Of a stretch of 64,000 nt of DNA, positions 5,861 to 56,728 are shown in pieces. Under the pieces are notes generated by a model that was not told the DNA's origin, searched no databases, and saw only the letters and a list, made by a program, of their open reading frames with translations. Numbering within the stretch: position 1 is the first letter of the stretch; each line of letters starts with the position of its first letter. The DNA is from Oscillospiraceae bacterium (GTDB lineage Bacteria; Bacillota; Clostridia; Oscillospirales; Ruminococcaceae). The stretch is from the NCBI GenBank assembly GCA_014799385.1, contig JAAVIC010000022.1, forward strand, positions 1-64,000. Direction: 5' to 3'. The position numbers and the translations under genes were made by a program.

Positions 5861-6274
5861 ATGTCAAAAAAGCAAACTCAACCAGAAGAATTACAGGCGG
5901 TTGAAATGCCGCCCGTTAGAGATTTCCTGACGGAAACACAGCGCGATGGGACAACATTGTGCGCATCGGACGTTTATTCGGAAACCTATTCATGGCTGAA
6001 ATTAATGGGCTGTGAAAATGCAGTGAGCCGACAGCTTATCGAGCAGTACGCAATGTCGGTAAGCCGCTGGGTACATTGCGAACAGATAATTTCAAAGTAC
6101 GGTTATATTGCCAAGCACCCTACAACGGGAGCAGCAATGACCTCGCCCTATGTCACAATGTCACAGGCATATATGAAACAGATCATATCTATCCGCGCCG
6201 AAATAAATCGAATAGTTGAGGACAACCGCCCTGTAACATCAAACTTTGTGCAGGAGGTGGTATACGGTGAATAA
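5861..6274 (+). CDS. P27-family phage terminase small subunit homologue
   Basis: A 137-residue protein. The central segment WVHCEQIISKYGYIAKHPTT then GAAMTSPYVTMSQAYMKQI (about 71-110) matches the P27-type small terminase pattern. ATG 5861 has an AAGGAGG ribosome site. It overlaps the methyltransferase gene by 8 bases. The packaging operon downstream has its own Nu1-type small subunit (12426-13091) next to TerL, so this copy is a second, uncoupled homologue. It might have another DNA-binding role or be a relic of a recombination event. Confidence 0.72.
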   Translation: MSKKQTQPEELQAVEMPPVRDFLTETQRDGTTLCASDVYSETYSWLKLMGCENAVSRQLIEQYAMSVSRWVHCEQIISKYGYIAKHPTTGAAMTSPYVTMSQAYMKQIISIRAEINRIVEDNRPVTSNFVQEVVYGE

Positions 6275-7523
6275 AGACATTGAATACTATCTCGCTGATA
6301 TTTCCGAGTTGCTGCCTTACGCACGAAACGCGCGTACACATTCTCCGGAGCAGATTGCGCAAATCGCCGCGTCAATCAAAGAGTTTGGATTCCTCGCGCC
6401 GGTTGTAGTTTCCGGGGATAATACAATCTTGTGCGGACACGGTCGTTTCTACGCGGCACAAAAGCTCGGACTCAAGAAGATACCATGTATCAAGGAGAGT
6501 CATCTTACGGAGGCACAGCGGCGCGCGTACATAATCGCTGATAACAAGCTATCGCTTAATGCGGACTGGGACGAAAACCTTCTCGCAGTCGAGCTTACCG
6601 ATCTTCAAGGGGATAACTTCGATTTGTCGCTGCTCGGATTTGACGATATGGAAATCGCTGATTTGTTTTCTGGAGATAAGAAAACCGGGACAACTGACGA
6701 TAATTTTGACCTCACCGCCGCGCTTGAGAAAGCCGCATTTGTGCAGCTCGGCGACATCTGGACTGTAGGCAGGCACAGAATGATGTGCGGCAGCGCAACA
6801 AGCCCCGAGGATGTTTCTGCACTTATGGACAACAAGACCGCAAACATTGTCGTTACCGACCCGCCCTACAATGTGTCCTTTAAGTCCTCAAGCGGATTAA
6901 AGATACAGAATGACTCTATGGGCGGCGAGGATTTTTACAATTTCTTAAAATCAGCTTTCGACAATATGGCGGCACATCTGGAAAGTGGCGGTGCAGCTTA
7001 TGTGTTCCACGCTGATACCGAGGGCTTGAATTTCCGAAAAGCATTTATTGATTCCGGATTCCATCTTGCCGGGTGCTGCATATGGGTGAAGAATTCGCTA
7101 GTCCTCGGGCGGAGTGACTATCAGTGGCAACATGAGCCCGTGCTGTACGGATACCTCAAAAATGGCAAACACTGTTGGTACTCTGACCGCAAGCAAACTA
7201 CCATTTGGAATTTTGACAAGCCCAAACGCAACGAAAATCACCCGACAAGCAAACCACTTGATTTACTCGCTTATCCAATTTGCAACAGTTCGCAAGAGAA
7301 TGCCATTGTTCTTGATACATTTGGTGGGAGCGGTTCAACGCTTATGGCGTGCGAACAGACAAACCGCACTTGTTTTACGATGGAGCTTGACCCGAAATAC
7401 GCGTCAGTTATCTTGCGGCGGTATGTCGAGTATACCAATCGCCCGGACGATGTGTATGTATTGCGCGGCGGTGAGAAAATACCGTATTCCGACCTCGTCA
7501 AGGAGGTGGAACACGGTGAGTGA
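6267..7523 (+). CDS. ParB-domain DNA methyltransferase (N6-adenine/N4-cytosine type)
   Basis: 418 residues from a GTG start with AGGAGGTGG upstream. The N-terminus is a ParB/Srx-like nuclease-fold domain (about 5-100, with GHGRFYAAQKLG). The methyltransferase domain follows: DPPY at 198-201 before the SAM-binding FGGSG at 352-356, the beta-class motif order. It modifies exocyclic amino groups of A or C; the site cannot be read from sequence. Such enzymes usually protect phage DNA from host restriction. It overlaps the next gene (C5 methyltransferase) by 8 bases, so both are expressed together. Confidence 0.92.
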   Translation: MNKDIEYYLADISELLPYARNARTHSPEQIAQIAASIKEFGFLAPVVVSGDNTILCGHGRFYAAQKLGLKKIPCIKESHLTEAQRRAYIIADNKLSLNADWDENLLAVELTDLQGDNFDLSLLGFDDMEIADLFSGDKKTGTTDDNFDLTAALEKAAFVQLGDIWTVGRHRMMCGSATSPEDVSALMDNKTANIVVTDPPYNVSFKSSSGLKIQNDSMGGEDFYNFLKSAFDNMAAHLESGGAAYVFHADTEGLNFRKAFIDSGFHLAGCCIWVKNSLVLGRSDYQWQHEPVLYGYLKNGKHCWYSDRKQTTIWNFDKPKRNENHPTSKPLDLLAYPICNSSQENAIVLDTFGGSGSTLMACEQTNRTCFTMELDPKYASVILRRYVEYTNRPDDVYVLRGGEKIPYSDLVKEVEHGE

Positions 7524-9252
7524 TTTAACTTTAGGCTCGTTGTTTGACGGGAGCGGCGGTTTTCCGCTTGCAGGAATATTATGTGGAATTACTCCGATTT
7601 GGAGCAGCGAAATCGAGCCGTTTCCGATTCGTGTAACGGAAAAGCGACTGCCGAATGTGCGGCATTTTGGCGATATATCCAATCTGAACGGTGCTGAATT
7701 GCCGCCTGTGGATATTATAACATTCGGTTCGCCGTGTCAGGATATGTCGGTAGCCGGGAAACGGAGCGGCTTGTGCGGAGAGCGTTCGGGTTTATTTTAT
7801 GAAGCAATCCGCGTAATAAAGGAAATGAGAGGTGCTACTAATGGCAAACATCCGAGATACATCGTGTGGGAGAACGTCCTCGGTGCGTTCTCCTCAAACA
7901 AAGGCGAGGATTTCCGCGCCGTCCTTGAAGAAATCTGCCGCATCGCGGATAATAAAGTATCAATTCCTGGATTTGAGAAGTGGCGTGGTGCGGGAGAAAT
8001 CGTGGGAAACGGATATTCCCTTGCTTGGAGAACCCTTGACGCGCAGTTTTGGGGAGTTCCCCAACGTCGCCGTAGAATCTTTCTTATCGCAGATTTTAGA
8101 GGTCAGAGTGTCGGAAAAGTATTATTTGAGTCCGAAAGCCTGTCTGGGCATTTTGAGAAGAGCAAAATTGCGCGGGAAAGAACTACCGGAAGTGCTGAAA
8201 AAGGCTTTAGAGCAACAGTCTGCTTGAACGACCAAGGCGGAGAGCGCATTGACATCACTGATGATGTCACTTGCACCTTGAGAGCCTCAGCTCATCACCC
8301 GCCATGTGTTCTCAACGCGGCAGGGTTCTGCATGGAGCATTCCGCAAACTCTCGGAGCATTGGCTACGAAAAAGAAACCTCACCTACACTCCGTGCCGGG
8401 ACTGTTCCGGCTGCTGTTTTTGAAAATCATTCACAGGATACGAGATACACGTTGCTTAATGAGGTCGCTCCCACCGTGTCCTCAACCTATGGAATGGGCG
8501 GAAATAATCAGTCTTTGGTAGTGGAGAATGTCGGAAATTTCGATATTCGGCTGACTTCTGAGGGCACAAAGAACGCCCGGGCGAACATCTATGAAACAGA
8601 TACCTCACGCACAATCGACTGCAGCGGAAATTCTCCCGATAGGAATCAGGGCGGGCTTGCTATAGTCTCATACGGAATAGACCGAGCAGCTTTCAATCAA
8701 GGCAGAAATGCTCAATTTGATTTTACTGTTGATGAGGAGATACAACCGACCATTGTCGCAAAAGGTGCAGGGGCGGTTGTACAGCCGACTTTTACATCAA
8801 GCAAGGCATCGTTTTTTACAAATTATTCGGAAGAAGTGACAGGCACACTCGTTGCGACCGACTACAAAGACCCACCAATCGTCAACGATAGCGAGTTGCA
8901 ATACATAGTGCGTCGCCTGACTCCAACTGAATGCGCGAGACTGCAAGGATTTCCCGACTGGTGGTGTGAAAATCTCGGTGAGGATAATCCGAACGAGGGT
9001 GAAATTGCACACTGGCGGCAGATTTTCGAGGAATATCGAGCGGCTGCAGGCAAGCCGTCAAAGCCAAAAACCGATAAGCAGATTATTAAATGGCTTCGTA
9101 ATCCGCATAGCGACAGTGCGGAATACAAGCTGTGGGGAAATGGAGTTGCTTTGCCGTGCGTTTGTTTCGTACTGTCGGGGATTGTTTGGTACAATTCCGA
9201 CAAAAATTTGCAGAAATGTTTGTACACCAGTGACATTGATAAATCAACGTAG
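7516..9252 (+). CDS. DNA (cytosine-5) methyltransferase with long repetitive insert
   Basis: 578 residues from GTG 7516 (AGGAGGTGG upstream). Motifs: I GSLFDGSGGF (7-16), IV GSPCQD with nucleophile Cys74, VI ENV (119-121), VIII QRRRR (183-187), IX RRLTPTECARLQGFPDWW (466-483), X GNGVALPC (541-548). The 275 residues between VIII and IX, normally the target-recognition region, carry about six degenerate copies of a [DE]-x3-T-[LIV]-x-[AS] unit (near 249, 286, 315, 360, 407, 438). Likely role: DNA self-modification against restriction. The last codons overlap the upstream part of the promoter for the next gene. Confidence 0.93.
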   Translation: MSDLTLGSLFDGSGGFPLAGILCGITPIWSSEIEPFPIRVTEKRLPNVRHFGDISNLNGAELPPVDIITFGSPCQDMSVAGKRSGLCGERSGLFYEAIRVIKEMRGATNGKHPRYIVWENVLGAFSSNKGEDFRAVLEEICRIADNKVSIPGFEKWRGAGEIVGNGYSLAWRTLDAQFWGVPQRRRRIFLIADFRGQSVGKVLFESESLSGHFEKSKIARERTTGSAEKGFRATVCLNDQGGERIDITDDVTCTLRASAHHPPCVLNAAGFCMEHSANSRSIGYEKETSPTLRAGTVPAAVFENHSQDTRYTLLNEVAPTVSSTYGMGGNNQSLVVENVGNFDIRLTSEGTKNARANIYETDTSRTIDCSGNSPDRNQGGLAIVSYGIDRAAFNQGRNAQFDFTVDEEIQPTIVAKGAGAVVQPTFTSSKASFFTNYSEEVTGTLVATDYKDPPIVNDSELQYIVRRLTPTECARLQGFPDWWCENLGEDNPNEGEIAHWRQIFEEYRAAAGKPSKPKTDKQIIKWLRNPHSDSAEYKLWGNGVALPCVCFVLSGIVWYNSDKNLQKCLYTSDIDKST

Positions 9253-46536: not shown

Positions 46537-48810
46537 GTGGATATGGACGAGCGTCTGGAGTGGTTTATGCCAAACCGCATAATGAAAACAATTCACGACT
46601 TTAAGAGTCCTGTTGGCGGCAGCCGTTTATTCATAATCGGAATCGGAATGAACGGTGTGGATATTGCTCTCAGATGCAAGGATTTTGCCGAAAATTTCTG
46701 CGATTTCGACTCTCACACCATCAGGTTTCTTGGAATCGACCTCGCGGAAAACCTGAGATTTTCGGAATACTGCGGCTCAAAACTGCTTGACACAGAGCGA
46801 ATCGAGATCGACCCCGAGGAGTCAATTTATCCGTATCTGAACGCTCCCGAAAGTCTTCCCGAACCGGTTCGCGAGTGGTTTGACGAAGGACTTTTCAACT
46901 ATACGCAAAAAACGCCCGTTTACGGAAAGAGCAAGCGTCAATGCGCGCGGTTGTGCGTTTTTCATTATATCGACAAGATAACGAACGAATTTAAGACCGC
47001 TCACGCTGATTTCTCCAAAGGAAAAAAACCGTTGGAAATAATGCTCGTGGGCAATCTTGGTGATCCGTTCTTCGGCGGAATGGCAGTCGATTTAGCATAC
47101 ATAGCGAGGTCTGTATTTGGCGATGTAAACTATTCCGCGCGGATTTGCGCGCATATGCTCGCTGCGGACACCGCACTGCTGCAAGGGCTGTCGGGGCGCG
47201 ATCTGGCGGCATTTTACGCGAATACGGTAGTTACCAAGTCCGAGCTTGACAGCTTTCAGTCCAAGCGACGCAGATTCACGCAGACGTATTCCCCGAAAGT
47301 AGCTTTACAATGCGATTCGTCCCCGTTTTCGATATGCAGCATTTACGCTGCGGAGAGTACATATGATTTGACCGTGGATAAGGTCGCCGTCAGGATTATG
47401 AGCGACTTTTCCGTACCATATACACAAGATGGTGATATTGACAAGAAACTGACCAACAATATGTTGCACCGTGACAAGAAGCGGAGATTCAACTACATTA
47501 CAGGGGAAAGCATTTTTAATACTGTACCTATTGCTAAGATTTTTTGTTATTTGTCACTGAAAATCCTTGTTGGACTAGATAGCTATTTGTGCAAAAACAC
47601 AATGGATGAGATGGAATTGGGTCTGCTGAAAGGCAAGGTTTGCCCGGATGCGTTGATATTGGCAAGCAAGGCGGGAAATGTTCCGAAGTTTGAATTTGAT
47701 GAAATAATCAATCCGCTTTTCTCATTTGAATCGCTGAGACGCGGCCGTAACGCCTCAATGAAGTATGTCACCGACCGATTGGAAACGATACAAACCCTTT
47801 GCGAGTCCGCTTCCGAAGCCTATTTGCAAGAACTTTTCGACTATGTTAAAAAAATCTGCGAGGACGCTGTTTTCGACATAAAAAAAGGTCCCAGATATGC
47901 CGAGGGGATAGTGAAAGGCTGCTTAAAAGCGCTCAGAGAGCGCTCTGAGAAGATTCGCAGTTCACTTGGTGAAATTGACGAAAATGTTTCACGTGCTGAG
48001 GCAAATTTGAAAGCCTTTCACCGAAAGCTAAAAGCTCCCGGATTCATTGCCAAAAAAGCCGTAGAGCCTTACATTGACAAGCTAAAAGAGTTCACGGAGC
48101 TAAAAAGGTCACAGCTTACCGGGTGGATTATGATCGCGTTTTATGACAGATTATGGCAGTCGCTTGATGAATACGCGAGTGAAGATTTGTGCAAAATGAC
48201 GAACATTTTTGACGATGCGAAAATGCTTTTGGAGTCGGACAAGATCCTAAAAAATTCCCCCCGAAACGGCTTTATACACGAGATTTTTGACCCCTCTACA
48301 GGGAAATCGCGCGAGATACTTGATCGCGTAGTGAGCAATCTGAGCGTCGACAGGAAAGAAATGCTTTTTAAGCACATAATCCTGCAAACCCTTTACCGGG
48401 GTGACTCCGCTGCGGTTGCGAAGGAAATATCCAAAATAGCGGCAATGTGTTTCAGCGAGTTGTTTTCAAAGGGAATAAATGAACTTAATGACGAGTTTGG
48501 GGAAGGGAATATCCTCACGAGCGTGCTTGCCGATTGCGTTGACAATATTTTAATCACAACTCCGACAGATGATGAACAAACAATCACGAGAATCGTGTTG
48601 CCAAAGGAGTGCGAAAACTGTAATTACAGCGAGCTTGACGGCGAAGAGATGCTCGTGAACGTGTCAATCATGCGGAATGCGGCGTTTGTGACACAGGTCA
48701 AGAGCGGAGTCAGATTAGATAAGTTCAGAGATTATGAACAATGGGAAAATATGAGATATGCATATGTAAATGATTCGCTGAAACGTCAAGGTATACATAT
48801 TTTCAAGTGA
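46537..48810 (+). CDS. Tubulin/FtsZ-like family protein with altered nucleotide loop
   Basis: 757 residues. The N-terminus fits bacterial tubulin-like proteins: FIIGIGMNGVDIALR (32-46), GKSKRQCARLCVFHYIDKI (130-148), then EIMLVGNLGDPFFGGMAVDLAYIARSVFG (167-195). The glycine-rich GGGTGSG signature expected in the last segment reads GNLGDPFFGG, so nucleotide binding may be changed or lost. The C-terminal half (380-600) is helical with coiled coil. It is followed 46 bases later by a TgpA-like membrane transglutaminase, probably in one operon. GTG 46537 or ATG 46543 after GAGGGGAG. Confidence 0.55.
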   Translation: MDMDERLEWFMPNRIMKTIHDFKSPVGGSRLFIIGIGMNGVDIALRCKDFAENFCDFDSHTIRFLGIDLAENLRFSEYCGSKLLDTERIEIDPEESIYPYLNAPESLPEPVREWFDEGLFNYTQKTPVYGKSKRQCARLCVFHYIDKITNEFKTAHADFSKGKKPLEIMLVGNLGDPFFGGMAVDLAYIARSVFGDVNYSARICAHMLAADTALLQGLSGRDLAAFYANTVVTKSELDSFQSKRRRFTQTYSPKVALQCDSSPFSICSIYAAESTYDLTVDKVAVRIMSDFSVPYTQDGDIDKKLTNNMLHRDKKRRFNYITGESIFNTVPIAKIFCYLSLKILVGLDSYLCKNTMDEMELGLLKGKVCPDALILASKAGNVPKFEFDEIINPLFSFESLRRGRNASMKYVTDRLETIQTLCESASEAYLQELFDYVKKICEDAVFDIKKGPRYAEGIVKGCLKALRERSEKIRSSLGEIDENVSRAEANLKAFHRKLKAPGFIAKKAVEPYIDKLKEFTELKRSQLTGWIMIAFYDRLWQSLDEYASEDLCKMTNIFDDAKMLLESDKILKNSPRNGFIHEIFDPSTGKSREILDRVVSNLSVDRKEMLFKHIILQTLYRGDSAAVAKEISKIAAMCFSELFSKGINELNDEFGEGNILTSVLADCVDNILITTPTDDEQTITRIVLPKECENCNYSELDGEEMLVNVSIMRNAAFVTQVKSGVRLDKFRDYEQWENMRYAYVNDSLKRQGIHIFK

Positions 48811-48856: not shown

Positions 48857-51508
48857 ATGAAAAAACAAAAATTTGCGGACGTTGTGTTGGTTTTTGACAG
48901 TTATTACCGTGATAAACCTAATGCTGTGGCACTGATTCTTAAAAGAATCCTGTTGTGCTGCGGGATAAATTTATGCGCGCTGATGTATATTTTTCAGATT
49001 TATCAGCTTTCGGTGAATAGATTGCTGTCGGGAATAATTTGCGTGTTGGCATCGATTTTGTTCTCGGTTCTGTTTGTTTTTGTGAAAAAACTCATCGCCA
49101 TTCCAAGCATAATTCTGATTGTAGGATTGGCGATTTGGCGCATTGGAGAACCGTTCTTTGAGCGTTTGTCATTGTTTTGGGATAAAATTCTGTTGATTAT
49201 GGACGGCAGGTTTTTCTATTCGAGTTTTTTCATATCCAATGTTGTTACTCAGATCAACTCGCAATCACCGGCATATCAAAGGAGCGAGTTACTTGGTGTA
49301 ATATTATTGATTTCCATTTTTTCCTTTATCACAGCAGCGTGTCTGTTCAACAAAATCCACTCGCTCCCCATGATCCTTGTATGGATCATACTATGGATTC
49401 CTGCCCTTGTTGGTGAGAAGTTATACTTTAACTGGTGGTTAATTCCATCGGTGGCGCTATATATAGCGGTTATTGCGATGTCTATTTCATATTCGCAGGG
49501 GCTTGCGATTGGCAAGGGCGTGACCTCATATCACGGAGTTGTCAGATATAACGAGATTTCATTTCTCCGTCATACAGCAAAACAGCCTTACACTTCCAAG
49601 GTCGTAAACCGCCACGAATATTACTCCAAGTACTATTCACTCGGCACTTATTTGTTCATAGTGTTCGCGATTTTGGGAATTGTTTCGACAATACTATTAA
49701 ATGGAAAGGACGGATTGGACTATTCGACTTTTTATGATTTTGTTAACTCGATAGGACCAACAAGTCAACGTTCCAGTCCGTTTGAAAGCGGAGCTTTGTC
49801 AGAATACTTCATAAATCCGGGGTATAATATGAATTTTCGCGACGCCACTCTTGGAATAAGCTCACCCGGACAGGGAAATCAGGAAATTTTGAGTGTAACA
49901 AATTCCGGGGAACTGCCCGTGTATTTGCGAGGTGACATTGGGATTGATTTTACAGGTGGTTCATGGACATCGCCCGTGAATACCGACCTCAGCAAGGGTC
50001 TGTGGGAACAAACCGAACTATCCGATGCTTTCCGACCGGCAGAGCTGAACGCTCTTTTGGCATATATTGATGATCGGAACAGCGGCGATTTAATAATTCA
50101 TCCTGACTCTGATCTTATTCGTCAGCAAGATGTCACCGTGAACTATCTTTGTGACACAAATGTTGCTTTTTTGCCGTCTTATGCCACAGATTTTGGCTAT
50201 TACGGGAACGAAATGTTCGATATTTACGGCGATTTTGTTGCACGTGCCAACAAAAAATACAACACTGTCAGCACCCTTAATTTTACGGCGCTCGTCCCCA
50301 ATTATATAAACGTTGACAGCCTTTCCGGTGAATTGGGTTCGGATACCGTTGGAGTTGTGAATTATCTGATTGGTACTGATTTTTATGAAATTAATGATTA
50401 TTTTGACAAGTTCTGCAGTTCGGCAAATGTTTTTTCGCGGTATCGAGATTATGTGAACAGGGCATATCTGGACGTTCCGGACGAGCTTGCGGAGCCGCTT
50501 GATGTGTTCATTTCCGCGAATAATCTTGGGCTTCACGGCGGAGTTTTGGATGTACCCGAGGTATACCAAACCGCCGTGCGGGTTGCGGACTTTTTGCGCG
50601 ACAATTACACTTATTCACTAATCGCGCCCATTGATCCCAACAACCCGATAATGAGCTTCCTGAATGATGTGAAATCCGGACACTGCGCGCTTTATGCCAG
50701 CTCGATGACGCTGATTCTGAGGGAGATGGGGATTCCTGCCAGATATTGCACGGGATTTGTCGCACAGCCCGGTAACGGTGAGCCGCAGGTTCTGCGCGCC
50801 AGAAACCTCCATGCGTGGTGCGAGGTATATCTTGGGCGGCTTGGCTGGGTGACGTTTGATCCAACCAGTGCAGCGGCAATGGGAAATTTTGGCACAAGCG
50901 ATATTTCAATTCCCGACTTCTCGGGTGATTTTTCCGTTCCGCAAATCAGCATAAGTATTAGTTCGGACTCTGCGCAAAGCAGTGAGGTTTCAAGCGACTC
51001 ATCAAGTAAAACCGATGAGTCCGACAATAAATCAAATGATTCGGAAGAGTCTGATTCCACGATCGTTCCGTTTGGCAACAACAAGGTGAATCCATTGCAG
51101 TACATTTTGGGAATCTCGGGAATTGTAATTGTTGCGGGATTGATCGCGCTGGTAATTTACCGATACAAGGTGCTCGAAGATGATGCGAAAAAGGCACTAA
51201 AGCGTTACTACAAGAGCAATGATTCGGATTTGCTGCTTGCAAAAATTCACGATGTAATGTGGGTTTGCGGATTCCGCCCGAATCGCGGCGAGCTGCCCGA
51301 GGATTTTTATATGAGAGCCGACAAATCGCTTGGGTGCGAGATTTACAGCAATCATGAGGTGCTAGAGGCAGCGGCATTCGGAAAATCCGGCAGATCCGAT
51401 TGCAGAGCGCTCGCAAAATTACTGGAAAATCTTTACAATCAAGCGGAAAAAGATTCAAAATTCACAAGAAAAATTCGTCTTAGAAAAAGCCTTGTCAAGA
51501 ATAAATAA
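48857..51508 (+). CDS. TgpA-like membrane protein with transglutaminase domain
   Basis: 883 residues. Several membrane segments in the first ~290 residues, an extracellular region, a transglutaminase core with Cys610 (SGHCALYASS), His652 (NLHAWCEVY) and Asp668 (TFDPT). A Ser/Asp-rich linker (about 695-740), a further membrane segment (about 755-775) and a cytoplasmic tail follow. Homologues usually sit with MoxR ATPase and DUF58 genes; here the partner is the tubulin-like gene. Probably acts on wall or surface peptides. Confidence 0.87.
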   Translation: MKKQKFADVVLVFDSYYRDKPNAVALILKRILLCCGINLCALMYIFQIYQLSVNRLLSGIICVLASILFSVLFVFVKKLIAIPSIILIVGLAIWRIGEPFFERLSLFWDKILLIMDGRFFYSSFFISNVVTQINSQSPAYQRSELLGVILLISIFSFITAACLFNKIHSLPMILVWIILWIPALVGEKLYFNWWLIPSVALYIAVIAMSISYSQGLAIGKGVTSYHGVVRYNEISFLRHTAKQPYTSKVVNRHEYYSKYYSLGTYLFIVFAILGIVSTILLNGKDGLDYSTFYDFVNSIGPTSQRSSPFESGALSEYFINPGYNMNFRDATLGISSPGQGNQEILSVTNSGELPVYLRGDIGIDFTGGSWTSPVNTDLSKGLWEQTELSDAFRPAELNALLAYIDDRNSGDLIIHPDSDLIRQQDVTVNYLCDTNVAFLPSYATDFGYYGNEMFDIYGDFVARANKKYNTVSTLNFTALVPNYINVDSLSGELGSDTVGVVNYLIGTDFYEINDYFDKFCSSANVFSRYRDYVNRAYLDVPDELAEPLDVFISANNLGLHGGVLDVPEVYQTAVRVADFLRDNYTYSLIAPIDPNNPIMSFLNDVKSGHCALYASSMTLILREMGIPARYCTGFVAQPGNGEPQVLRARNLHAWCEVYLGRLGWVTFDPTSAAAMGNFGTSDISIPDFSGDFSVPQISISISSDSAQSSEVSSDSSSKTDESDNKSNDSEESDSTIVPFGNNKVNPLQYILGISGIVIVAGLIALVIYRYKVLEDDAKKALKRYYKSNDSDLLLAKIHDVMWVCGFRPNRGELPEDFYMRADKSLGCEIYSNHEVLEAAAFGKSGRSDCRALAKLLENLYNQAEKDSKFTRKIRLRKSLVKNK

Positions 51509-51586: not shown

Positions 51587-52525
51587 ATGGCAATGCGGTT
51601 GATTACGCGGTCGGATTTTGACGGATTGGCTTGTGGCGCGCTTTTGCTGTGCGCAGGTATCGTTGATAGCTGGACTTTTGCGCATCCAAAAGATTTGCAA
51701 GATGGGTTGATTCCCGTCACAGAAAATGACTGCCTGGCGAATGTTCCGTTTGTCGAGGGGTGTGGATTGTGGTTCGATCATCACTCCAGTGAGGATGAGC
51801 GTATTCGTTACAAGGGCAAGTACAAGGGCGAAAGCCGTATTACACCTAGCTGCGCGCGCATTATTTACGAATACTACGGCGGGAAAGAGCGCTTCCCTAA
51901 TTTTGACGATTTGATGATCGCGGTTGATAAGGTCGACAGCGGAAATTTAACACGTGAAGAGATTTTGAACCCCACAGGTTGGATTCTTGTCGGATTTCTG
52001 ATGGATCCGCGAACCGGTCTGGGTCGTTTTAGGAATTTTACAATCAGCAACTACCAATTGATGGAAAAATTGTTGCGTTGCTGTGCGTATATGAGTACAG
52101 ATGAAATCCTCGCTATGCCCGATATTCAGGAGCGCATCAAGCTGTATAACGAGCAAACCGACTTGTTTAAGAATATGGTGCGCGAACATACACGCGTTGA
52201 TAACGATGTGATCATAACGGATTTGCGTGGTGTGAACCCGATTTACACCGGAAATCGATTCTTGATTTATTCTCTCTACCCCGAGCAGAACATATCATGC
52301 TGGATCGTTGACGGTAAGGGCGGCAAGGGATGCTCTTGTGCAGTGGGTTACTCCATTTTGAATCGAACTTCCCGCGTGGACGTTGGCTCGCTGATGTTGA
52401 AGTATGGCGGAGGCGGTCACAAGGCAGTTGGAACGTGTCAGTTCACTGATGCGGATGCAGCAACGCAAGTTCCGAAACTGCTTGATGAACTTGTGAATTA
52501 TAATAAATATTACTCCTTTTCTTGA
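51587..52525 (+). CDS. DHH-family phosphoesterase (exopolyphosphatase-like)
   Basis: 312 residues. DHH motifs: ITRSDFDGLACGAL (6-19), LWFDHHSSED (61-70) and a C-terminal DHHA1 GGGGHKAVGTCQF (about 276-288). It hydrolyses phosphoester or phosphoanhydride bonds with Mn; the exact substrate (polyphosphate, short oligonucleotide or other) cannot be read. It lies alone between its own promoter and a bidirectional terminator. AAGGAGTG upstream. Confidence 0.85.
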   Translation: MAMRLITRSDFDGLACGALLLCAGIVDSWTFAHPKDLQDGLIPVTENDCLANVPFVEGCGLWFDHHSSEDERIRYKGKYKGESRITPSCARIIYEYYGGKERFPNFDDLMIAVDKVDSGNLTREEILNPTGWILVGFLMDPRTGLGRFRNFTISNYQLMEKLLRCCAYMSTDEILAMPDIQERIKLYNEQTDLFKNMVREHTRVDNDVIITDLRGVNPIYTGNRFLIYSLYPEQNISCWIVDGKGGKGCSCAVGYSILNRTSRVDVGSLMLKYGGGGHKAVGTCQFTDADAATQVPKLLDELVNYNKYYSFS

Positions 52526-52537
52526 TATGTAAATTAA

Positions 52538-52570
52538 AGTTAAACGCAACTGCTTCAGTTGCGTTTAACT
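52538..52570. terminator. Bidirectional terminator
   Basis: AGTTAAACGCAACT (52538-52551) pairs perfectly with AGTTGCGTTTAACT (52557-52570), 5-base loop. It serves the convergent DHH and trmO genes and overlaps the last codons of trmO. Confidence 0.85.
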
Positions 52571-53226
52571 ATTTTGGTGATATATAATTTGGGGTTTTCA
52601 ACATAGAACGAAACCTCGAAACCTCCGTAAGACATTGTGTAGATACGTTCCGCATTGGACTGGTATTGCGGACGCGGGTCCTGGGCAAGCAGCTCAATCA
52701 GAACATCAAGCTTTTCATTGGGAATCGTATCGGCGATATTTTGTGGTATGACAACATCAAGTATACCCGATGTTGTTGCAAGTGCCCACCCGTTGGAGGC
52801 TTCGGGAATGCTGTCGGCATATGGAATATACGGCTTGATATCAAAAATCGGTGTGCCGTCCATCAAATCCGCGCCGCTAACGACCAACATACCGGGTTTG
52901 ATCTCCTCAAGCCGCACCACGCTTAGCCCCAGCCGATTGGGACGAAACGGCGACCGCGTTGCGAATACGCCTTTTCGTACATTTCCGCCGAGTCGGGGAG
53001 GACGAACCGTTGGTGAAAACGTATCCTCCGGGACTTGAGAAAATCCCCAAATCAGCCAAATGTGTGAAAAATCTTCCAGCCCTCGAAAACAATTCAAATC
53101 AGAAAATTCATCTTCAAAAACAATTTCGGAACGAATAGATGTTAATCCACTTTGTCGTGGAGTACCAAATTTCTCGATTAAATCGTTGTGGATTTGCGCA
53201 ATTTGGCGAATTGTGTATGAAAACAT
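52555..53226 (-). CDS. trmO: tRNA t6A37 methyltransferase TrmO (TsaA/YaeB family)
   Basis: 223 residues. Family features: N-terminal IAQIHNDLIEKFGTPRQSG, IVFEDEF, GLEDFSHIWLIWGFSQ, and the diagnostic GVFATRSPFRPNRLGLSVV, then LMDGTPIFDIKPYIPYAD. It methylates N6-threonylcarbamoyladenosine at position 37 of threonine tRNA using SAM. It starts 9 bases after the stop of the GTPase-nuclease fusion gene, so two translation-related genes share an operon. Confidence 0.93.
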   Translation of the reverse strand: MFSYTIRQIAQIHNDLIEKFGTPRQSGLTSIRSEIVFEDEFSDLNCFRGLEDFSHIWLIWGFSQVPEDTFSPTVRPPRLGGNVRKGVFATRSPFRPNRLGLSVVRLEEIKPGMLVVSGADLMDGTPIFDIKPYIPYADSIPEASNGWALATTSGILDVVIPQNIADTIPNEKLDVLIELLAQDPRPQYQSNAERIYTMSYGGFEVSFYVENPKLYITKIVKRN

Positions 53227-53235
53227 TATAATTTC

Positions 53236-55755
53236 TCACTTTCGATGCATTTTGTCCAGTATTTCTTGAATCGCCCGATTGATTTCATCAACTTCGAGTT
53301 TAAATTCGCGAGCCGAAATGCGTGTCGCCCCGGAACCCAGAATAATGAGCTGCTCCGTGCCGTCTGAAGTCGCCACACGAACGCGGTTGTCGCTGCTCAA
53401 CCGATGTGCGGTCTTTTCGATGAACATATCCGCAGTTTCCGCTTCGCGAGTGTAGACCACTTTTAGATTTCCGTATTCTTCCACCTCTCGGTCGCTTTTA
53501 ACTCGATATGCATCGAAAACCAAAATCACATTGCAGCGCCGAAAACCTTGATAATTACACAATATATTGATGAGCTGTGCACGCGCGGCGCCAAGATTTA
53601 GTCTGGCAATCTCTGCCAGCTCATCCCACGAAAAGATAATATTGTATCCATCAACCAACAAAAATTCCTCGCCGCGCTTTGGCGGCGGGAGCTTCGCGGT
53701 TTTCTCTAAATCCTTGTCGCGCCGCATTGCTACGCGGTTTTCACGTTTTATCTTGCCATATGTTCGTTCAAAAATTTCCATTAATTCCTTGTCAGTTGCC
53801 GCACGTTGCTTATATGATGCAATCTCGGTTTTTGTTGGATATTCAACTTCTTTCGCACGGAATACATACGGAATGTGCATTTTCTCGGGAACTTCACTCC
53901 ATTTAACCAGTTGCGCCGCACCATGTGAGCAAAAGATACTATCCGCAGTGTTTTCAATATCGGATTCGTGATTATAACCAATTTTCTCGATGATCTCTTG
54001 TGCATTGTGACAAGGGAAATATCCCTTCGGAATTAAAGTTAGACTCCCCAAACCGTGCGTATATGCATTAACCTCGCGTTGATAACCGCGCATTTCATAA
54101 ATTGAGCAGCTCCCGGTGATTGTTGAAAATTCAGTAAAACCGCATGGCTCCGTGAAATCCGCGTCCATTCGTTCCAAGTCGGTAAGCGCTCTGCCAACGC
54201 AATTGACAGGTATCTCCAATTTGAACGAGTAAAACGGTTCAAGCAGTATGGATTTTCCGCTTGCAAGTCCTTGCCGAACGGCTCTCCATGCGGCCTCACG
54301 AAAATCACCGCCCTCAGTATGCTTTTGGTGTGCTCGTCCGGCGACTAGCGTAATTTTCACATCTGTGAGCGGTGATCCGGTCAAAACGCCGAGATGTGAC
54401 CTCTCTCGGAGAGATTCAATCACCTGATTCTGCCAATTTTCCTCCAGATTATTACATTTTGAGCAAATTTCAATTCCGCTCCCCGGTGGCAGCGGCTCAA
54501 GGAGCAGATGTACCTCCGCATAGTGACGAAGAGGCTCATAGTGCCCCACGCCCTCGATTGGCTCTGCAATTGTTTCACGATATGAAATATTCCCCTCGTC
54601 AAACGTCACATTCAGACCGAATCGCTCTGCTATGCGACTTTGAAGTACCTCAAGTTGCAGCTCACCCATCACCGAAACGTGAATTTCGTTCAGTTGAGAA
54701 CTCCAAATGAATTTTAACTGCGGATCTTCTTGCTCTAATGCTTTAAGCCTCGAAAGTGTTTCGACCGAATCCGCCCCCTCCGGTAGGATTATCCGATACT
54801 CGAGAATCGACTCCAGGACCGGCTTTGCGCCTATTTCCTGCACCCCGAACGCTTGTCCAGCATATGTCTGTGACAATCCAACCAACGCGCAAAGCTGCCC
54901 CGATTCGGCAGAATCGATTTGTGTGAATTTTGTTCCGTTATAAACGCGGATTTGTGAAATTTTGTCACCTGAATTGTCAATAGCTGTGCGGTTTTTCAGC
55001 ACTCCGCCGTTGATTTTGATGTGTGTTAGACGCGAACCTTTTTCATCGGTAGTGATTTTGTACACTAAGGCAGCAAAGTCTTCGGAGCGCGATTTGGGTA
55101 TCGCAAGCCGTTCCAGAACGCTAAGAAGTTCATCAATGCCCTCGGATTTTAGTGCCGCCCCGAACATTACAGGGAACACCCTCCGCGTTGCAATGGTGCT
55201 TGAAATAAGGGTTTCCGGCACATTTCCGGAATCAAGCAGGGAATTCATACATTCCTCGTCCAGCTCAGCAATATGTTCAAGAAAATTATTGTCCAATTCA
55301 ACGAAATTTTTGTCTAACTTCAACAAATCATCAAGCAGTTCTTTGTTAGATTTATACGAAATATCCATCTTGTTCACAAAAACGAACACAGGAACTCCGG
55401 CTCGCTGTAAAAGCCCCCAAAGCGTTGCTGTATGCGGCTGAACGCCGTCCGTGCCGCTGATTACCAACACCGCTGCATCCAGAACCGAAATCGCACGCTC
55501 TGCCTCGGTAGAAAAATCCATGTGACCGGGGGTATCGAGAATTGTTATTTCGCAGTCATTAATTCTCAGAATCGCCTGTTTTGAGAAAATAGTTATCCCG
55601 CGTTCACGTTCAATCGGATTGTTATCAAGGAATGCATCGCCGTTGTCGACCCGCCCGCATTGCCGAATCGTCCCCGACTTGAACAGCATAGCCTCAGCAA
55701 GTGTGGTTTTTCCGGCATCAACGTGAGCCGCCAACCCGATAACCAGTCTTTTCAT
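53236..55755 (-). CDS. TetM/EF-G-like translation GTPase fused to a YacP/Rae1 NYN ribonuclease
   Basis: 839 residues. Residues 1-~660 are a ribosome-protection-type translation GTPase: P-loop AHVDAGKTT (10-18), DTPGH (74-78), NKMD (128-131), then EF-G-like domains II-V. Residues ~696-839 are a complete YacP/Rae1 domain: LLVDGYN with Asp702, VFDAYRVK with Asp748, TREAETAD, ATSDGTEQ with Asp798, SAREF. Rae1 of Bacillus cleaves mRNA in the ribosomal A site. Here the nuclease is covalently tied to a factor that enters that site. A linker of KRGEE type joins them. Role in ribosome rescue or regulated mRNA cleavage is inferred. The gene gives no evidence for tetracycline resistance. Confidence 0.93.
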   Translation of the reverse strand: MKRLVIGLAAHVDAGKTTLAEAMLFKSGTIRQCGRVDNGDAFLDNNPIERERGITIFSKQAILRINDCEITILDTPGHMDFSTEAERAISVLDAAVLVISGTDGVQPHTATLWGLLQRAGVPVFVFVNKMDISYKSNKELLDDLLKLDKNFVELDNNFLEHIAELDEECMNSLLDSGNVPETLISSTIATRRVFPVMFGAALKSEGIDELLSVLERLAIPKSRSEDFAALVYKITTDEKGSRLTHIKINGGVLKNRTAIDNSGDKISQIRVYNGTKFTQIDSAESGQLCALVGLSQTYAGQAFGVQEIGAKPVLESILEYRIILPEGADSVETLSRLKALEQEDPQLKFIWSSQLNEIHVSVMGELQLEVLQSRIAERFGLNVTFDEGNISYRETIAEPIEGVGHYEPLRHYAEVHLLLEPLPPGSGIEICSKCNNLEENWQNQVIESLRERSHLGVLTGSPLTDVKITLVAGRAHQKHTEGGDFREAAWRAVRQGLASGKSILLEPFYSFKLEIPVNCVGRALTDLERMDADFTEPCGFTEFSTITGSCSIYEMRGYQREVNAYTHGLGSLTLIPKGYFPCHNAQEIIEKIGYNHESDIENTADSIFCSHGAAQLVKWSEVPEKMHIPYVFRAKEVEYPTKTEIASYKQRAATDKELMEIFERTYGKIKRENRVAMRRDKDLEKTAKLPPPKRGEEFLLVDGYNIIFSWDELAEIARLNLGAARAQLINILCNYQGFRRCNVILVFDAYRVKSDREVEEYGNLKVVYTREAETADMFIEKTAHRLSSDNRVRVATSDGTEQLIILGSGATRISAREFKLEVDEINRAIQEILDKMHRK

Positions 55756-55842: not shown

Positions 55843-56220
55843 TCAACGTGTAATAATCACTGTTGCTGTCGCGTAATGCTTGCAGTGGTCAACGGAAATG
55901 TTGATTTCAAAGCCCTCGCGCTGTTCCATCAGCTTCGCATTTCCGCTTGTGATGATGAACGGAGAACCCAATCTATCGCGTAAAACCGCAATGTCGCGCG
56001 CTCTGATAATGCGAAAACCGGTACCGATCGCCTTTGCCAATGCAATTTTTACACAGTAGTTTTCAGCAATAAGTGCTGGTGACAACTTACGGGAAACGAA
56101 AAAACGTATCTCGTCCGCAGAAAAATAATTCGACAGAAAAAATCTGTTTTTCGCACTTTTGGCGATTCGTGGAATCTCTACAATTGCTGTTCCGGTTCGG
56201 ATAAACAATTTACTTGGCAT
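55843..56220 (-). CDS. AcpS-like protein lacking both metal-binding acidic residues
   Basis: 125 residues, normal AcpS length. It aligns with holo-ACP synthase throughout: RTGTAIVEIPRI, the YCVKIALAKAIGTGF helix, LRDRLGSPFI, and a C-terminal DHCKHYATATVII. The conserved Asp of G(T/I)DIVEI is Ala here, and the Glu of KEA is Ile. Those two residues coordinate Mg and are needed for phosphopantetheine transfer in characterised enzymes. It is therefore probably inactive as an ACP synthase. The start at 56220 overlaps the upstream gene by 11 bases. Confidence 0.75.
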   Translation of the reverse strand: MPSKLFIRTGTAIVEIPRIAKSAKNRFFLSNYFSADEIRFFVSRKLSPALIAENYCVKIALAKAIGTGFRIIRARDIAVLRDRLGSPFIITSGNAKLMEQREGFEINISVDHCKHYATATVIITR

Positions 56221-56728
56221 GGCTCTGTAACCTCGTGCGGAGCATTCCCGGAACTTGCTGCACAATCGCTTTCTTTGTCTTTTCATTGGGGCTGAAAATC
56301 AGCATAACTGTGCCATAATCACCGTGCTCTACGAACAAATAAGCAACATCGTTCTCGTTGCCGCTCGATGCGTGAACAGTTGTCTTGGCGCGATTTCCAT
56401 TCACCGGCGGCTTTTTTTCGGTAAAATCCTGCGCCTTGGACAAATCAATTGTGATCATACGTTTCCGGCGACTTTTGGCAATGATTTTATCAACGTCCAT
56501 CTGATTGTTGGTGATGATATACTCGTATTCCGAGTTGATATTTCTAACCAGCCACACACACAAGGCAATCGCCCCCGGCACTCCAAAAAACAATATCGGA
56601 GAGATAAACCCGGCACCTAAAACACACAGCATTGATACTATCGCTGCCGCGAGGATCAATCCGATTGCTTTCAGGACATCAGCTCCCGTCCGCTTTTTAG
56701 CAACCAATTGTTCACATACACAATCCAT
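56210..56728 (-). CDS. Two-helix membrane protein, DUF6106-like
   Basis: 172 residues. Two membrane segments at ~19-62 (AIGLILAAAIVSMLCVLGAG and SPILFFGVPGAIALCVWLVR), then a cytoplasmic beta-rich domain with YEYIITNNQMDVDKIIAKSRRKRM, resembling DUF6106/PH-like membrane-tail proteins of Clostridia. First gene of a leftward operon with the AcpS-like protein, the GTPase-nuclease and trmO. Confidence 0.7.
   Translation of the reverse strand: MDCVCEQLVAKKRTGADVLKAIGLILAAAIVSMLCVLGAGFISPILFFGVPGAIALCVWLVRNINSEYEYIITNNQMDVDKIIAKSRRKRMITIDLSKAQDFTEKKPPVNGNRAKTTVHASSGNENDVAYLFVEHGDYGTVMLIFSPNEKTKKAIVQQVPGMLRTRLQSHAK

Follow-up and report, generated by a model that had tools for sequence, protein, structure and literature searches.

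The locus described here raises the question why a translation GTPase and a ribosome-associated ribonuclease should be joined in one polypeptide chain, and which task such a protein would fulfill in the cell. In the window (the entire 64,000-nucleotide stretch of Oscillospiraceae DNA that we analyzed), an open reading frame on the minus strand (53236..55755) starts with an ATG codon that is preceded by the ribosome-binding-site-like sequence TAGGTGAG and encodes 839 amino acids without an internal stop codon. The G domain (aa 4-217; 55105..55746) matches Pfam GTP_EFTU (E 1.3e-48) and contains a P-loop (residues 10-18), the switch motif RGITI, DTPGH (74-78) and NKMD (128-131); its G1, G3 and G4 motifs, together with the histidine of DTPGH, assign the protein to the translational GTPases of the EF2 superfamily. 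The EF-G-like domains II, III, IV, and V follow (aa 227-584; 54004..55077), recognized as EF-G_D2 (227-303), EFG_III (328-385), EFG_IV (388-499) and EFG_C (504-584). A C-terminal element (aa 578-627; 53875..54024; CHN ... FC.HG ... MH), common to the unfused relatives of the GTPase and the point at which these end, is connected through a linker (aa 628-698; 53662..53874) to a Rae1/YacP NYN nuclease domain (aa 699-839; 53239..53661). The latter matches NYN_YacP over residues 699-837 (E 5.7e-48; 163.5 bits against a Pfam cut-off of 24.6), and all other Pfam matches exceed their cut-offs as well. The view of the preliminary description that a complete GTPase and a complete YacP/Rae1 domain reside in one intact reading frame is thereby borne out, as are all the individual motifs it had listed (P-loop, DTPGH, NKMD, Asp702, Asp748, Asp798), to which Asp776 can be added as a further conserved acid.

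A frameshift or an assembly error that misrepresents the relation of the two domains, which the preliminary description had named as its possible undoing, was not found: fused frames of like length are present in independent assemblies, and because the fusion recurs in single-contig genomes and in the complete chromosome of Ruminococcus bicirculans, an assembly artefact is excluded. Compared with a homologue of 94% identity (L069), dN/dS falls from 0.12 in the GTPase through 0.07 in the linker to 0.03 in the NYN part. Within the host genome of 2.69 Mb, the fusion is the only YacP match, and the genome also encodes EF-G (frames of 710 aa) and an EF-G-like paralogue of 703 aa. Nine bases downstream of the fusion gene, on the same strand, lies trmO (52555..53226, minus strand). 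As an operon partner, the role in which it had previously been presented, trmO stands at this locus, and the pairing does not extend to the family: among 97 fused loci, trmO directly follows the fusion in only 24 and occurs at all in 29, so that we rejected it as a fixed partner. Adjacency is limited to the nearer relatives (54% identity or more), in a survey in which 87 of the 97 loci offered more than 900 bases downstream and 80 were best matches, near relatives being over-represented. Upstream, 87 bases before the fusion and also on the minus strand, is a gene for an ACPS-like phosphopantetheinyl transferase (55843..56286; PF01648, 27.5 bits, cut-off 25), perhaps part of the same transcription unit. 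A search for a leader RNA or attenuator in the window and at ten unfused loci gave no Rfam match at gathering score. Further along the window are a 312-aa protein (51587-52525) with DHH/DHHA1-like motifs (DFDG, DHH, GGGGH; Pfam DHHA1 weak, E 0.003) and a Tubulin_2-like protein (46537-48810) adjoining a transglutaminase-core protein (48857-51508).

When the distribution of the GTPase plus NYN_YacP architecture was mapped, a check suggested in the preliminary description, a YacP match was found in 250 of the 393 genomes sampled from the class: 136 carry the fusion, 113 possess a separate Rae1 only (frames of 160-342 aa), and one holds a scrap at a contig end, while 143 are without a YacP match. 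The 136 fused genomes comprise 91 recognized by a YacP frame of at least 800 aa, 36 recognized by the GTPase frame only, and nine with a cut or split YacP frame (295-789 aa), one of which (G324) is without a GTPase match. A single genome among the 393 (G417) has both a fused and a separate copy. At the level of the order, YacP matches were obtained in 43 of 147 genomes: 42 lie in frames of at least 833 aa, and a contig end cuts the frame of the last. GTPase matches with E 1e-70 or better occur in 37 of the 398 genomes of a phylum sample, and a few of these represent other groups. The named carriers include Ruminococcus, Faecalibacterium, Gemmiger, and Fournierella. The fusion is common in the class.

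We rejected the notion of a mobile resistance gene: among the 20 plasmid records listed, out of 24 with an NYN match, two carry the fusion (one from Agathobacter rectalis and one from Monoglobus), and a pattern-based scan of IMG/VR yielded no relative. The record MT835563, filed as a phage, unannotated and labelled UNVERIFIED, contains a fusion of 878 aa and is probably bacterial sequence. The NYN query also matched twelve 'plasmid' records of C. difficile; the record that we inspected (NZ_CP149721.1) carries a separate rae1 in the core region gltX-cysS-rae1-tuf-rpl and is probably a piece of the chromosome assembled as a circle, and we therefore dismissed these matches as candidates for mobile NYN genes.

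The strongest evidence for function comes from the fate of the separate rae1 gene where the fusion is present. In 44 of the 45 separate loci whose neighborhood we tested (out of 113 genomes; the C. difficile locus supplied the query genes), rae1 adjoins rlmB and/or sigH, the exception being G347. Fused genes are located elsewhere, since any of rlmB, sigH, cysS, or mrnC occurs in the flank of merely 4 of 96 loci. We located rlmB in 20 fused genomes; sigH lies downstream of it in 19, and in none is an intact rae1 found between the two. For comparison, three of five genomes with a separate rae1 harbor an intact copy in this slot, which measures 616-673 bases, and in the other two rae1 is situated farther off (G217) or on another contig (G239). 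The transition can be followed within genus g108: one member (G196) has an intact rae1 and is without the fusion; in another (G168), which carries the fusion, the slot is occupied by a decayed rae1 interrupted by stops and frameshifts, with 71.6% nucleotide identity over 587 bases and a protein match of 63 bits (at most 23.5 in 60 shuffles); four more (G263, G346, G445, G509) have the fusion and slot flanks that are 112-159 bases apart versus 556-602. In G314 and G388, rlmB and sigH are separated by 215 and 246 bases, respectively, without rae1 between them, and rae1 remnants of 34.7-54.7 bits are recognizable in G220, G241, G473, and G497 (maximum of 20 shuffles about 20). Weak slot matches in G259, G278, G281, G431 (23-29 bits) and G330 (23.5 bits) were left out of this count, and the slots of the other fused genomes in the survey contained no rae1 remnant. 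Decay or remnants are hence seen in one genus and two other families; in genus g103, the fused and the separate form are found in different genomes. The host's own rlmB (contig C27) has no mrnC, sigH, or rae1 match beside it, and rlmB of G307 has mrnC and is without sigH; the operon is broken up in both, and the slot argument can consequently not be made there. As the rae1 slot is emptied or decayed where the fusion is present, the fusion has very probably replaced the separate Rae1 in these lineages. In G330, about 3.5 kb separate the fusion from rlmB-sigH, the slot of which is devoid of rae1 (L272, 5870-13870), a layout that is possibly a trace of the birthplace of the fusion, or chance.

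In the nuclease part, Asp702, Asn705, Asp748, Asp776, and Asp798 are kept in each of the 152 fused rows of our alignment (the window's own gene is counted twice). Twenty NYN positions are at least 90% conserved both among the fused proteins (34 rows) and among the separate ones (44 rows), and at each of them the residue is identical between the two. One row tallied as separate in this count and in the NYN tree, L174, is a frame-split fusion, and a C. difficile row enters the NYN tree twice. The solved relative of the domain is YacP (5MQ8/5MQ9; E 2.5e-25, homologous over 139 residues), that is, Rae1 of B. subtilis, with which the fusion has both the NYN homology and the conserved catalytic set in common. 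The two differ in their organization: Rae1 is a separate protein whose gene, within the class, usually adjoins rlmB and sigH, whereas the fused version forms the C-terminal part of a GTPase encoded at another locus. They probably play the same role, as the fusion replaces rae1.

The GTPase part, judged from alignments and trees, belongs to a separate EF-G-like subfamily with its own domain-IV tip and is not, by sequence, a tetracycline-protection protein. All eight GTPase residues that we checked are kept in 149 of the 152 fused rows; the Asn of NKxD is lost in L099 and L209, and an in-frame stop interrupts the frame of L225 (G329). The window protein is 41-68% identical over its full length to 47 other fused proteins, and its GTPase part has an identity of 47% with an unfused protein encoded on Ligilactobacillus salivarius megaplasmids, of 29% with TetM and of 28% with the EF-G of its own host. 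Fused and unfused relatives (61 rows) form one group in a quick tree of 68 rows (99% SH-aLRT), in which L261 and L003 are long rows. A signature of 28 positions, absent from TetM/O/S and from the host's EF-G, distinguishes this subfamily. The fused proteins form one group (93 in the quick tree; 91/86 in a smaller, more careful tree; these supports are modest), with the Lactobacillaceae GTPase inside or beside it (AU p 0.307); this GTPase may have lost its NYN part or may have diverged shortly before the fusion arose. Given this grouping, the simplest reading is that the fusion arose once.

At the tip of domain IV, two loops are conserved with the consensus GxGHxEPxxHYAEVH and GRAHxKHTxGGDFR; in the window protein, they correspond to GVGHYEPLRHYAEVH (aa 402-416; 54508..54552) and GRAHQKHTEGGDFR (aa 473-486; 54298..54339). 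Of the 152 fused rows, 148 keep all nine tip residues that we checked, as do 24 of the 25 unfused ones. His411 in loop 1 aligns with the Gln of the EF-G motif GQYGHV and His476 in loop 2 with the His of GSYH, which we take to be Gln507 and His583 of E. coli EF-G. According to the available text of PMC9307594, these two EF-G residues contact the tRNA-mRNA complex. TetM has Phe and Tyr at the positions of His411 and His476. The fusion GTPase resembles EF-G in its domain order and has histidine at the two tip positions where EF-G contacts the tRNA-mRNA complex through Gln and His; it differs from it by the low overall identity, by a rewritten loop 1, and by the fact that the host possesses EF-G besides. 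It scores 277.7 bits against the EF-G equivalog TIGR00484, far below the cut-off of 659.4.

Several observations on related GTPases deserve mention. The loci of unfused relatives that we inspected have no common gene neighborhood. Two consecutive ABC half-exporters adjoin the unfused GTPases at L254 (3889-7439) and L282 (1211-4850). The B. subtilis BmrCD transporter is a pair of ABC half-exporters, too. Its genes, bmrC and bmrD, are named among the candidate Rae1 targets in the available text of PMC10632193. Matches to the window GTPase, at 46-48%, were also obtained in 33 plasmid records of Ligilactobacillus; both records inspected (L285, L. salivarius UCC118 pMP118, 5986-7920; L157, 6001-7920) encode unfused proteins of 639 and 644 aa, on pMP118 next to a plasmid-borne rpsN (S14), and their annotation as tetracycline resistance proteins is not supported by the sequence. 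L300, L301, L304, and L306 represent a third EF-G-like group (31-33% identical) with tips such as YTMPKPCWA and HTHPLDF or similar, which belongs neither to the Tet proteins nor to the subfamily of the fusion GTPase.

EF-G and TetM, translation GTPases of this shape, bind the ribosomal A site. We propose that the fusion protein is a Rae1 equipped with its own ribosome-binding motor. In its GTP form, the EF-G-like GTPase would bind ribosomes with a free or paused A site, and the tip of domain IV would be placed at the decoding center. As domain IV and the nuclease cannot occupy the A site together, two steps must be assumed: during or after GTP hydrolysis, the Rae1 nuclease, tethered through roughly 70-120 linker residues, would cleave the mRNA within the A site or adjacent to it, and rescue of the ribosome would follow. 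The fusion would thus do the work of Rae1 in place of a separate rae1 gene. What speaks for such a protein on the level of sequence is the conservation of both catalytic halves, the near-complete mutual exclusion with rae1, the decay or loss of rae1 in genomes that carry the fusion, and the distinct GTPase subfamily with its conserved tip. That the fusion acts as a ribosome-dependent endonuclease of the Rae1 type is, in our estimation, likely; for the proposal as a whole, delivery by the GTPase included, we consider the chances to be even. The replacement of rae1 argues for the nuclease and not for GTP-driven delivery; ribosome binding, cleavage in the A site (extrapolated from B. subtilis Rae1) and a GTP-timed hand-over are steps that we infer. 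The function is dispensable, given the 143 of 393 genomes without a YacP match. A more specific, and rather tentative, version would be a GTP-gated endonuclease, in which the His-rich tip clears or repositions the decoding center and GTP hydrolysis swings the tethered Rae1 into the A site; the unfused GTPases might then be ribosome factors able to work with a separate Rae1.

The alternative that survives best assigns two jobs to the one chain: the NYN domain would be a Rae1 of the usual kind, able to find ribosomes on its own, the GTPase would have a separate job in translation, and the fusion would merely equalize their amounts. We consider this unlikely, but it stays alive because each half exists separately. 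In G347, the one clear fission in the class sample, the NYN part stands alone (L286) without a GTPase remnant beside it, it sits among fused sequences in the NYN tree (support 87; supports in this tree are modest), and the GTPase encoded elsewhere in that genome is of the unfused kind; conversely, the Lactobacillaceae GTPases that we inspected are without an NYN part. Unfused GTPases (E <1e-100) are moreover present in 20 of the 113 genomes with a separate Rae1 versus 6 of the 143 without a YacP match, a comparison that ignores shared ancestry, and the former number rises to 22 if G287 and G351, whose tips fit the subfamily, are added. The linker, too, is long and variable (68-119 aa across relatives). 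However, it contains a conserved stretch (DKELMEIFERTYGKIKR, residues 655-671) that looks helix-like by eye, a single clear fission stands against 136 fused genomes, and both halves are expected at the same ribosomal site, all of which speaks against two separate jobs.

Less probable still is that the nuclease acts on rRNA or tRNA, in maturation or quality control, instead of on A-site mRNA, with the GTPase serving as an assembly or recycling factor. The available text of PMC4342817 cites a proposal that YacP-like NYN domains take part in the maturation of rRNA and tRNA, and the ancestral rae1 gene adjoins mrnC and rlmB, both rRNA genes; yet the characterized Rae1 destabilizes mRNAs in a translation-dependent way (as described in the available text of PMC10100781), and the 20 conserved NYN positions are identical between fused and separate domains.

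The architecture as such is already in print: Tet proteins with a YacP-like NYN domain were reported for ten Clostridiales species together with a guess at a resistance mechanism (PMC4342817, 2015; available text), and the protein described here has this architecture, too. Besides this article, our literature search found no other prior description, although an RNA Biol 2018 paper on the distribution of Rae1 was outside its reach and may mention the fusion. PMC4342817, in its available text, counts the GTPase among the Tet proteins and proposes a role in resistance, whereas our analysis places the GTPase apart from the Tet protection proteins and shows the fusion to go along with the loss of rae1. 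The label TetM-type in the preliminary description does likewise not hold in the sense of the resistance family. TetM, TetO, TetS, TetQ, and Tet36 have the five-domain EF-G-like order in common with the fusion GTPase, but are only 27-30% identical to it, have another tip and C-terminus, and form their own group in the quick tree (99% SH-aLRT) that excludes the fusion. The TetM/TetO/TetS domain-IV loop YYSPVSTPADF is not present in the window protein, which has GRAHQKHTEGGDF in its place. Against the NCBIfam model tet_protect (NF012153; cut-off 775), the window protein scores 376 bits, the R. bicirculans fusion 410, the L. salivarius protein 374, and two unfused clostridial relatives 421 and 442, whereas a true protection protein in G246, used as control, reaches 1001. 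That a tetracycline ribosomal-protection protein acquired a nuclease and thereby a new means of resistance, as suggested in PMC4342817, is therefore very improbable: the TetM-like domain order, the annotation of some relatives as TetM/TetW/TetO/TetS and the vicinity of some unfused relatives to ABC exporters or two-component genes are outweighed by these scores and identities, by the replacement of the TetM tip YYSPVSTPADFR by GRAHxKHTEGGDFR, by the separate grouping of the five Tet proteins, and by a gene that behaves as a replacement of rae1.

Collectively, what is new here is how common the fusion is, its very probable replacement of rae1, the separate GTPase subfamily to which it belongs, and the five NYN residues that are kept in all fused rows checked. 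These findings draw attention to an EF-G-like GTPase subfamily that occurs in gut Clostridia (for instance Ruminococcus, Faecalibacterium, and Gemmiger) and some members of which are annotated as tetracycline resistance proteins though their sequence says otherwise. At the same time, the nuclease is linked to a translation GTPase in a natural fusion that very probably stands in for Rae1, so that it becomes testable how Rae1 enters the A site and which ribosomes it selects.
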